A stretch of DNA of 64,000 bases from Anaerolineales bacterium. Its GTDB lineage: Bacteria > Chloroflexota > Anaerolineae > Anaerolineales > Villigracilaceae. Shown one piece after another: positions 13,097 through 52,251 of this stretch. Every line of letters starts with the position of its first letter. The first letter of the stretch is position 1. The position numbers were made by a program, and so were the translations under genes. The stretch spans positions 930,001 through 994,000 of the forward strand of contig JABTUU010000002.1 in NCBI GenBank assembly GCA_015075275.1, given 5' to 3'. A model generated the notes under the pieces. That model searched no databases and was not told where the DNA came from. It worked only from the letters and a program-made list of their open reading frames with translations.

Positions 13097-14290
13097 ATGA
13101 CCTATAACTTTGACGAAATTATCGAACGCCGCCATACCAATTCCATCAAATGGACCGCCTACCCTGAAGATGTATTGCCGATGTGGGTCGCCGATATGGA
13201 TTTTTCCGTCCCTGAACCGATCCGCGACGCGCTGCATCAAGCAATCGAACGCGGCGAGTTCGGATATGCGTTTGCCACGCGCAAAACTAAACAGATCGTG
13301 GCGGAGCGCATGCAACGACTCTACGGCTGGAGCGTGGACCCAGATTGGGTGATGGAGACAACCGGCGTGGTGAGCGGATTTAATATCGCAGCGCGCGCCT
13401 ATTGCCGCCCATCGGATGGCGCGTTGATTCAAACGCCCGCTTACCCGATGTTTTATTCGATCTATAAGAATATGGGTTTGACGCAGCAGACTGCGCCGCT
13501 ATCGTTTGTCAACGAAGGCGGCGTTCTTCACCCGCAGTTAGACCTCGACGCGTTTGCACGTTCTTTCCATTCGAATCATGCGCGCACTCGTATGTTCTTG
13601 CTATGCCATCCGTATAACCCGACGGGGCAAGTCTTTTCGCGCGAGGAACTATTGCGTATGGCGGAAACTTGCTTACAAAACGGCGCTATGATCATTTCGG
13701 ATGAAATTCACTGTGAATTATTATTGGATGATGCGAAGCATATCCCGACCGCCGCGCTCTCTCCAGAAATTGCCGATCGGACCGTCACGCTGATCTCTCC
13801 GAGCAAAACTTTTAACATTGCTGGACTCTTCAGCGCTTTTGCGATCATCCCCAATGCGGAAGCGCGTGAAAAATTCAAAGAAGCCAGCGAGAAGATGACG
13901 GGACATCCTTCGAGTTTGGGATTGATCGCCGCTGAAACCGCGTTCTCCGGCGCTTGCGACGATTGGTTGAATGAATTGAGGCTTTATCTGGCGCGTAACC
14001 GTAACTTTGTGATGGAGTATTTGGCTGAGAATTTTCCGCAGGCGAAATATACGCATCCTGCCGCCACATATCTTCATTGGATTGATTTCGGCGAATATGT
14101 TCGAATGGGTCAGATCGTCGATTCCCCGTTCAAATTTTTCCTTGAGAACGCCAAAGTCGCGGTTAATGACGGCAAGCCGTTCGGCGCTGGGTACGAAAAC
14201 TTTATCCGTCTGAATTTTGGCGCGCCGCGCGCGCTGGTCGAGCAGGGATTAAGCCAGATGAAGCGCGCGCTTATGCCGGCGCGGTATTGA
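13097..14290 (+). CDS. PatB/MalY-type PLP-dependent C-S lyase (cystathionine beta-lyase-like)
   Basis: 397 residues, fold-type I aminotransferase-like. N-terminal MTYNFDEIIERRHTNSIKW with MWVADMDF is the hallmark of the MalY/PatB group. HPYNPTGQVFS (about 173) and the PLP-lysine motif SPSKTFNIAGL (about 235) are intact. Such enzymes cleave C-S bonds in cystathionine or related cysteine conjugates, giving pyruvate, ammonia and a thiol. Pairing with an upstream methyltransferase suggests a thiol or sulfur-metabolite step, which is inference. A bidirectional terminator follows. Confidence 0.88.
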   Translation: MTYNFDEIIERRHTNSIKWTAYPEDVLPMWVADMDFSVPEPIRDALHQAIERGEFGYAFATRKTKQIVAERMQRLYGWSVDPDWVMETTGVVSGFNIAARAYCRPSDGALIQTPAYPMFYSIYKNMGLTQQTAPLSFVNEGGVLHPQLDLDAFARSFHSNHARTRMFLLCHPYNPTGQVFSREELLRMAETCLQNGAMIISDEIHCELLLDDAKHIPTAALSPEIADRTVTLISPSKTFNIAGLFSAFAIIPNAEAREKFKEASEKMTGHPSSLGLIAAETAFSGACDDWLNELRLYLARNRNFVMEYLAENFPQAKYTHPAATYLHWIDFGEYVRMGQIVDSPFKFFLENAKVAVNDGKPFGAGYENFIRLNFGAPRALVEQGLSQMKRALMPARY

Positions 14291-14299
14291 GATTACCCT

Positions 14300-14499
14300 A
14301 AATAATAAAGGCGGGCAGCATCATGCCGTCCGCCTTTATAGTGTTTTTGATTGTAATTATAGGAAGAGCGCGATTACATTGCCTTGTTATCGTCAGGCGA
14401 ACGTCTAAGCGCAAAGCCGGGCTTTGGTTAGGTTAGGGATAACCCGCTCCTCGTTGTCTGGTTGTCAGGCGGAGTATCTATCGCAACCTCCTTTCTGCT
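14300..14499 (-). ncRNA. Candidate structured small RNA in the 335-bp gap
   Basis: This gap has no supported CDS. On the minus strand TATACT (14506-14511) is a -10 candidate, and the hairpin at 14307-14337 would end a transcript of about 190-200 nt. The minus-strand 5' part AGGAGG..GCGAT can pair with AUCGC...CUUCCU near 14361-14374. One pair is G-U on this strand but would be A.C on the other, favouring the minus strand. Inside, GATACTCCGC can pair with GCGGGTTATC (one mismatch), GGTTA-TCCC-TAACC is a perfect hairpin and AAAGCCCGGCTTT is self-complementary. CGCCTGAC occurs twice. Not matched to a known RNA family; length is 6S-like but I see no diagnostic 6S features. Confidence 0.35.
14307..14337. 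terminator. Bidirectional hairpin terminator
   Basis: AAAGGCGG (14307-14314) pairs with CCGCCTTT (14330-14337), with partial internal pairing GGCA/TGCC. It is followed by TATAGTGTTTTT on the plus strand and by a T-rich run on the minus strand. It can end the C-S lyase transcript and the candidate minus-strand RNA. Confidence 0.7.
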
Positions 14500-14625
14500 G
14501 CCTATAGTATAGGTTAAGAAAACGCTTATTGCATTAAAAATAGCCTACGCTTTCATTAAAGATTTTAGATCGGTTGACGCTGTGGGTATAGTACAATCTG
14601 TCTGACAAATTTTTAGGAGCAGCCC

Positions 14626-16116
14626 ATGACTACCATTGACCTAACGATTGATAAAGCGCGTCGTCAACGCGCCGTACGGCGCGCCAGAGAACGCAATATT
14701 ATCATCCCAACTTACGCGCAGATGAAAGACCCTTCAAAGATTCCTTCAAGGATTCAAGAGGAATTGAGCGGCATCGGATTATGGGATCTGCATCCGCGCA
14801 ACTTGTTTCGTATTACTTGGAAGAATCACCCGGTCGCCGCGTCGGGCGCGGACGCTTCGAGCGCGCTCAAGACGCGCTTTGGCGGAGTCAATTATCTTGA
14901 ACTGCCTTCCTCGTTAACGGGCGTAAAAGCTAGGATCATTTGCATTGTTGGCAAGTGGTTCCCCACCGGAGCGCATAAAGTAGGGGCGGCGTTCTCGTGC
15001 CTTGTGCCGCGCCTCGTGACCGGTCAGTTCGACCCGACCACGCAGAAGGCGGTTTGGCCCTCCACAGGCAATTACTGTCGCGGCGGCGCTTACGATTCCG
15101 CGCTGCTGGGCTGCGAATCGATCGCTATTCTACCTGAAGGGATGTCGAAAGAACGATTCGACTGGTTGAAAACTGTGGCGGGTGAGATCATCAAAACTCC
15201 CGGCAGCGAATCGAATGTTAAGGAAATTTTCGATAAATGCTGGGAATTGCGCAACTCCGGTCAAGACCTGATGATTTTTGATCAGTTCCAAGAGTTCGGC
15301 AATTACTTGTGGCACTACGATGTGACCGGGCGCGCTATGGCGGAAATCATCGAACAGGCGCTGGGCGCGGGCGACCGCTATCGCGGCATGGTCTCGGCGA
15401 CAGGTTCAGGAGGGACGATCGCCAGCGGCGATTACCTGAAGCAGCTGTATCCTGAGAGTAAGATCATCGCAAGCGAAGCGTTGCAATGCCCAACGCTGCT
15501 CGAAAATGGATTCGGCGCGCATCGCATCGAGGGCATCGGCGATAAGCACGTTCCCTGGGTGCATAACGTCAAGAATACGGATATGATCGCGGCGATTGAC
15601 GATAATGCGGTGGTCAATTTGGCGCGCTTATTCAACGAAGAACACGGTCGTGCTTATCTAGTGGAGCGGGGCGTCCCGGAAGAGACGGTTGCGCAGCTTG
15701 ACCTATTGGGCTTTTCCGGCGTAGCCAACGTTCTATCGTGCATCAAAGCCGCGAAATATTACGAAATGGATGAAAACGACGTGATGTTGACCATCCTGAC
15801 CGATTCGATAGAACTGTATCGTTCGCGCATGCACGAGATGAATCAAGAGTTTGGCGAGTACAGCGAACGCGACGCGGCGGCAGGCTTCGCGCGTTATCTG
15901 CAAGGTGAATCGACCGACAACCTGCTTGAGCTGCGCTATACGGATCGCCGCCGCGTGCATAACCTGAAGTATTACACTTGGGTCGAGCAGCAAGGCAAAA
16001 CCTATCAAGAAATTCAGGCGCAATGGTACGACCCCAATTACTGGACAAACGTACAAAAGCAGGCGGATGAAATTGATGAATTGATCGTAGAGTTTAATCG
16101 CGAGGCGGGGCTTTAA
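14626..16116 (+). CDS. PLP-dependent enzyme, cysteine synthase/TrpB-like superfamily
   Basis: 496 residues, fold-type II PLP enzyme. The PLP lysine sits in PTGAHKVGAAF (about residue 113), followed by the cofactor loop STGNYCRGGAYDSALLGC. GSGGTIASGDYLKQLYPES is the glycine-rich phosphate-binding region. It is longer than cysteine synthases and has extra N- and C-terminal segments, matching proteins usually annotated as PLP-dependent protein subunit beta. The actual reaction is unknown; beta-replacement or elimination on an amino acid is likely. AGGAG lies 9 bp before the start and TACAAT is about 35 bp upstream. Confidence 0.8.
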   Translation: MTTIDLTIDKARRQRAVRRARERNIIIPTYAQMKDPSKIPSRIQEELSGIGLWDLHPRNLFRITWKNHPVAASGADASSALKTRFGGVNYLELPSSLTGVKARIICIVGKWFPTGAHKVGAAFSCLVPRLVTGQFDPTTQKAVWPSTGNYCRGGAYDSALLGCESIAILPEGMSKERFDWLKTVAGEIIKTPGSESNVKEIFDKCWELRNSGQDLMIFDQFQEFGNYLWHYDVTGRAMAEIIEQALGAGDRYRGMVSATGSGGTIASGDYLKQLYPESKIIASEALQCPTLLENGFGAHRIEGIGDKHVPWVHNVKNTDMIAAIDDNAVVNLARLFNEEHGRAYLVERGVPEETVAQLDLLGFSGVANVLSCIKAAKYYEMDENDVMLTILTDSIELYRSRMHEMNQEFGEYSERDAAAGFARYLQGESTDNLLELRYTDRRRVHNLKYYTWVEQQGKTYQEIQAQWYDPNYWTNVQKQADEIDELIVEFNREAGL

Positions 16117-51863: not shown

Positions 51864-52248
51864 GGGGATGACAGGCTTCGACGGGAGAGGCTGGTTCCGG
51901 AATGCGAGCCGAGCGGCGCCGAACTCGTTAACGCAGCGCAAAACCTTAAGTGCCAACCGCACTTCCTACGCTGCTATGCCTCTCGCCGCCTAGTGTGACG
52001 AGATCATAACAGTCGGTCTCCTTGATGAGACCGCGTCCGCCGCGCGCCGCCCTCCACCCGGCGACGGACCGGGCGACACAATGGTGTGAGCGCCGCGTAG
52101 GATTCTGCTAACTACGCCTAAGCCTAGCAGATGGTCGCAGGGACGCTAGCCCGCCGAGGTCCTTGCGATGACATTATCCGGCAGGCTACGCTCGTAGATT
52201 TCCGAGGGTCGAGTCTTTCGGACCCGGGTTCAATTCCCGGCATCTCCA
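51864..52248 (+). ncRNA. ssrA: Transfer-messenger RNA (tmRNA)
   Basis: Begins GGGGATGACAGGCTTCGAC, the canonical tmRNA 5' end, and ends with a T-arm (CCGGG-TTCAATT-CCCGG) and CATCTCC-A, which pairs with GGGGATG as the acceptor stem. CCA is not encoded. The tag reading frame runs from GCC at 51952 to TAG at 51991-51993 and encodes ANRTSYAAMPLAA. GGTCTCC..GGAGACC-like and GC-rich pseudoknot regions follow. tmRNA with SmpB rescues stalled ribosomes; the LAA end would target proteins to Clp proteases such as ClpC in this window. Confidence 0.97.
51952..51993 (+). other. tmRNA proteolysis-tag reading frame
   Basis: Thirteen codons plus TAG encoding ANRTSYAAMPLAA, with GCC (Ala) as the resume codon. 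AN at the start and LAA at the end fit typical bacterial tags. Confidence 0.85.
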
Positions 52249-52251
52249 CTG

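Follow-up and report, generated by a model that had tools for sequence, protein, structure and literature searches.

A conserved RNA family of Candidatus Villigracilaceae with a branched fold and a putative mini-ORF behind an extended Shine-Dalgarno sequence

The 64,000-nucleotide stretch analysed here (the window) belongs to the 2.88 Mb genome of a wastewater-type Chloroflexota bacterium and raises the question of what lies on its minus strand between an aminotransferase gene (13097-14290, plus strand; PF00155, judged PatB/MalY-like from its length and its neighbours) and a PALP gene (14626-16116, plus strand; PF00291). An RNA read from the minus strand at this locus heads for the aminotransferase gene from its 3' side. 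The original prediction had placed a stand-alone structured RNA here, with a TATACT promoter and an end hairpin, and these elements were recovered. The -10 box TATACT (14506-14511, minus strand) reads TATGAT in most relatives and is part of a promoter conserved in them, and a 31-nt terminator-like hairpin with a U-rich sequence on both sides (14307-14337, minus strand) separates the RNA from the convergent aminotransferase gene, in agreement with the predicted stand-alone RNA. The terminator scan gave this hairpin no score, probably due to its interrupted U-run. Near the -35 position, the element TTTTTAATGCAA (14529-14540, minus strand) is conserved in homologues: 68 of 79 carry TTTAATG/A upstream, and in 56 of them it precedes the -10 box by 19-20 nt, with spacing to the TATNNT-like box of 20 nt in 46 copies and 19 nt in 10. 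A general promoter class was rejected, as TTTAATG and a -10 box at 20-nt spacing gave only two matches in the own genome, the same number as a reversed control pattern.

Single-sequence folding proved only partly convincing as evidence for a structured RNA, with a folding z of -3.3 on the minus strand versus -1.4 on the plus strand for the whole region, and of only -1.05 for the core without the end hairpin. Comparative sequence evidence settled this point and confirmed that the minus-strand structured RNA is real. A structure with the elements P0, P1, P2, P3 plus apical hairpin, and P4 was drawn from nine copies and used for a covariance model. In the alignments A3 (63 copies) and A5 (79 copies), both fitted to the structure and thus leaning towards it, 28 of 35 and 31 of 35 pairs, respectively, changed on both sides, so that the predicted RNA was borne out by covariation among family-wide homologues. 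Double-changed cells in A5 numbered 346 as compared to 104 +/- 11 in shuffles, and 88.5% of the cells were paired in the true structure versus 38-53% in slid structures. The first alignment, made with MAFFT from fewer sequences and without the structure, revealed the same trend (13 double-changed cells versus 4.5).

All helices lie on the minus strand. P1 joins a 5' strand at 14445-14452 to a pyrimidine-rich 3' strand at 14362-14370, which resembles an anti-Shine-Dalgarno (anti-SD) sequence and reads CUCCUUUCC in several relatives; its pairs covary, exchanging GC, AU, and CG freely among copies, and many copies display a C.C mismatch or a small internal loop. P2, with 75% of cells paired, is a weak element. 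The P3 stem (CUAA/UUAG, 14405-14431) with its apical hairpin AAAGC/GCTTT (14413-14425), together helices 6 and 7, shows GC-to-AU exchange between relatives and the window. The hairpin P4 (CGUU-loop-ACG, 14391-14403) is paired in 96.8% of cells, and its loop contains CC in 59 of the 67 loops recognised by pattern. P0, a candidate 5' hairpin of AGGAGG with CCNCCU, is paired in 84-89% of cells with two-sided change almost absent, and its CC codons are missing from distant genera. The long-range pairing of the 5' and 3' parts proposed for the RNA stood in modified form, as the pairing of 14362-14370 with 14445-14452 inside a mini-ORF. The minimum-energy fold of the window sequence also allows the 5'-most AGAAAGGAGG to pair with the 14362-14370 strand, but this pairing showed no covariation, since the sequence is nearly invariant and such alternative pairing of the SD lies beyond the reach of covariation. 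Averaged over single-sequence folds of 89 copies, the SD was paired with the 3' end in 28% and with the early ORF in 43%. The repeat CGCCTGAC, for which a role as a binding motif had been proposed, is present twice in the window; its counterparts diverge in relatives, the first reading CCGCCTGAC and the second TCTCCTAACG or TCCCCAAACG, and it is therefore not a conserved motif.

A DNA search of relatives gave matches in 11 of 61 genomes, the own genome counted. The first covariance model extended this to 84 of 152 Ca. Villigracilaceae genomes from 15 of 26 genera, mostly with one copy per genome, and a second model added further genera as well as one genome from another family of the order. 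A pattern search of GTDB genomes yielded 45 stretches, 44 of which bear Anaerolineales, Anaerolinea(e), Chloroflexi, or other Chloroflexota titles, one of these naming Ca. Villigracilaceae; the remaining one is titled Flavobacteriales. Class- and phylum-level searches returned beyond the order just weak matches of 21-29 bits, most of them noise-like. Two genomes of the same class (G571 and G652) keep an SD followed by ATC GAG GTG CCA and may be true relatives. In another family of the class, an SD with the ATC frame IEVPDWE...RLAG has surroundings that look weakly RNA-like (L165, 2001-2140, minus strand; L166, 2001-2145, plus strand) and is possibly a distant relative. Viral contigs searched gave no match to the RNA.

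Besides its fold, the RNA carries an extended Shine-Dalgarno sequence, AGAAAGGAGGT (14486-14496, minus strand), all 11 nt of which are perfectly complementary to the 3' end of 16S rRNA, given that the 16S gene of the own genome ends with ...GGATCACCTCCTTTCTAG. GAAAGGAGGT was invariant in the first nine aligned homologues, and nearly all copies open with (A/G)GAAAGGAGG or close variants. The SD is followed by a mini-ORF of 17 codons with AUA as first codon and the stop UAA (14428-14481, minus strand; IDTPPDNQTTRSGLSLT), which in the sister species (L003/L026) comprises 15 codons (IDTPPDNQTTRSGLP), a one-base insertion in the window relative to this species having extended the end of the frame. 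The spacing from SD to codon 1 is 4-7 nt, mostly 5 nt, and most copies then have an open frame of 12-17 codons; exceptions are L106 and L107, which lose it near its end, and some copies with a longer frame. A wholly non-coding RNA was not supported, as a conserved reading frame extends through the 5' third.

Several features give this frame a coding signature. Across codons 2-10, upstream of P1, the substitution score was 0.74 in frame, the two alternative frames scoring -0.13 and -0.20, and one of 1000 column shuffles reached the in-frame value (P 0.001). The stops in 92 copies were TAA (44), TGA (36), and TAG (12), and in a tree of 36 copies with 16-codon frames, built from the RNA itself, the stop type switches at least 12 times among UAA, UGA, and UAG. 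Changes at third positions dominate at codon 1 (6/6) and codon 2 (14/17), and also at codons 4, 5, 11, and 16. Distant genera keep the frame (I/V/T-E-N/T-M-...-G-K-T-G-stop) without the PP codons able to pair with the SD. Fold and frame are well supported by the sequences.

The first codon deserves particular attention. In the 92 copies, for which a rule applied to codons 1 and 2 selected the frame and so partly conditioned the counts at both codons, it is ATA in 53, ATC in 21, ATG in 6, ACC in 4, GTC in 3, and another codon in 5; hence, 74 of 92 copies have ATA or ATC behind a strong SD. The frame begins at this codon because spacing changes upstream that are not multiples of three leave it intact. 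Together with in-frame stops upstream of codon 1 in some copies and the AUG that one clade and tandem copies have at this position, these shifts led us to take codon 1 as a putative near-cognate start. A start upstream of the SD was considered and rejected: an in-frame ATG occurs in the -10 box of some copies, yet others have in-frame stops immediately before AAGGAGG, the spacing ranges from 4 to 7 nt, and transcription would not include the -10 box. The main weakness of a near-cognate start is ACC and GUC, present in seven copies, which are poor matches for the initiator tRNA and fit it badly.

Escherichia coli infC starts with AUU, and the infC genes of the genomes carrying the RNA offer a parallel. 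In the own genome (L176), ATC occupies the required start position of IF3, the product of infC, and ATG, GTG, and TTG are all absent from the upstream stop to the conserved domain; 29 of 30 other genomes (L178-L206) have ATC or ATA at this position, no motif being found in the remaining one (L177). The gene thus appears, from its sequence, to start with AUC or AUA and never AUG in the own and 29 related genomes. In Staphylococcus aureus, extended SDs precede the AUA starts of infC and ccpN, and reporters carrying starts of this type reach about 10-30% of AUG output (PMC13009471). By analogy, this logic of a strong SD with a disfavoured codon would fit the mini-ORF, which is probably IF3-sensitive. 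Extended SD and evolutionarily conserved near-cognate start are common to both, and the infC of the very genomes that carry the RNA starts with AUC/AUA; the ORF here differs in being tiny and in lying within a stand-alone folded RNA instead of a protein gene.

The fold, the ORF, the SD complementarity, the class of start codon, and the infC starts are supported by sequence; transcription, translation, IF3 control, and the switch with its output are inferred. We propose, with moderate confidence and about evenly balanced between right and wrong, a stand-alone RNA gene of dual nature, in which a poorly initiating, IF3-sensitive mini-ORF would lie inside a fold that the ribosome opens, freeing an anti-SD-like strand. 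RNA polymerase would start just downstream of TATACT and produce an RNA of ~190 nt, whose 5' end would be bound by a 30S subunit at the 11-nt extended SD. Initiation would be inefficient at the near-cognate AUA/AUC, a codon class rejected by IF3 and used by infC itself in these genomes. Once initiation succeeded, 12-17 codons would be read up to a stop near the inner end of P1. Since the ORF includes the 5' strand of P1 and stops close to the inner end of this stem, the translating ribosome would have to open P1 and would free the pyrimidine-rich 3' strand (CUCCUUUCC or similar), which resembles the 16S anti-SD. This strand could close the SD of the RNA itself, providing feedback, or, like the CC-rich P4 loop, could reach the SDs of other mRNAs, so that refolding of the RNA would be coupled to how initiation stands, in terms of IF3 or of ribosome supply. 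For P1 switching and the trans targets, it is the complementarity that suggests these steps. A bolder version, a dedicated initiation sensor in which IF3-gated entry at AUA/AUC toggles the RNA between a form with an open SD and an anti-SD-presenting one that regulates other mRNAs, seems rather unlikely.

We favour a ribosome-state switch, without certainty, over a gene serving only for its peptide and over an RNA acting only as a ribosome decoy. That the locus is simply a structured mRNA for a functional peptide of 12-17 aa (I-E-T-P-P-E....G-K/R...P), the weak start limiting its level with neither a switch nor IF3 sensing, is conceivable but somewhat unlikely: residues are conserved at both peptide ends, third-position changes point in the same direction, and SR1/SR1P offers the precedent of a small protein encoded on an sRNA (PMC8501984), but codons 7-10 in the middle of the peptide vary freely, and the 3' two thirds, without ORF, are strongly conserved in structure. 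Third-position pattern, stop interchange, and an in-frame score above that of other frames argue in turn against a non-coding RNA that binds 16S rRNA/30S via the extended SD and holds or titrates ribosomes at a non-start codon, with the frame being mostly a by-product of RNA constraints; the clade with AUG does not suit it either, and even with the nearly invariant 11-nt SD and a P-site position occupied by non-start codons, including ACC and GUC, we regard it as quite improbable.

The combination of SD, short ORF, alternative stems, and terminator-like hairpin looks leader-like, and an attenuator or riboswitch acting in cis on a neighbouring gene might come to mind. In most loci examined, the window included, the downstream gene is convergent, the upstream gene varies between clades while the RNA is retained, and no cis target was apparent, which makes a leader highly improbable. 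A divergent member of a known family is still harder to believe, indeed extremely improbable. Size and long-range stem are reminiscent of 6S RNA (RF00013), a check against which had been suggested, but Rfam 15 gave no match for the region at the gathering score, in keeping with an RNA unassigned to any of its families. Known families were rejected at E<=10 too, a threshold at which 6S RNA still gave no match, and the own genome has its 6S gene elsewhere (C1:578572-578751). Branched fold, SD, and ORF set the RNA further apart from 6S RNA, with which it shares a stand-alone gene. SRP and RNase P were likewise found elsewhere in the own genome, so that none of the three is a missing gene; tmRNA (RF00023) is not present here, the one of the window being located at 51864-52251 (plus strand, tag ANRTSYAAMPLAA). 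The L20 leader model (RF00558) reached 23.4 bits versus a gathering score of 58.7, and matched both strands through the terminator-like hairpin; such a leader calls for an L20 operon downstream, where the window has the convergent aminotransferase gene.

In the literature searched, nothing matching was found on RNA motifs of Chloroflexi or on sRNAs of Villigracilis, nor was a description of a regulatory RNA in Ca. Villigracilaceae. The RNA adds an undescribed family to this environmental bacterial family, of a kind, a structured RNA with a short ORF, that is already known. RNAIII/hld of S. aureus is a dual-function sRNA, to which the CC-rich P4 loop can be likened as a C-rich loop that could target SD sequences. 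SR1/SR1P of Bacillus subtilis is another dual-function sRNA (PMC8501984). Both share with our RNA a stand-alone structured RNA with a short ORF; the ORF here, mostly of 12-17 codons with an AUA/AUC start, has no known sequence relation to them. The downstream-peptide RNA (yfr6) of cyanobacteria is a structured RNA forming the 5' UTR of a short conserved ORF (PMC2864571), and a coding signature is a further common feature, whereas the ORF lies within the fold here and the larger part of the conserved structure is 3' of it. New, to our knowledge, is a family-wide non-AUG start in a structured RNA with a short ORF, a rare case of such a start being kept across many genera. As the infC of the same genomes shares the start codons, start-fidelity control of genes beyond infC becomes directly testable. 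If codon 1 (Ile, Val, Thr, and Met codons) were read by elongator tRNAs, it would represent a bacterial start bypassing the initiator tRNA.

Some genera show further arrangements. At L065, L111, L112, and L114, the RNA has paralogues nearby, with second and third, divergent copies within about 0.4-5 kb. In the divergent genera of L063, L066, L103, L105, and L113, a short 5' hairpin with changing pairs, e.g., GACC...GGTC, directly precedes the SD. Tandem promoter-proximal parts with their own mini-ORFs precede the full RNA at L067 (3001-3368), L068, L069, L115, and L116, and at L067 two tandem mini-ORFs begin with AUG (MDVPPEICKRDERYP).
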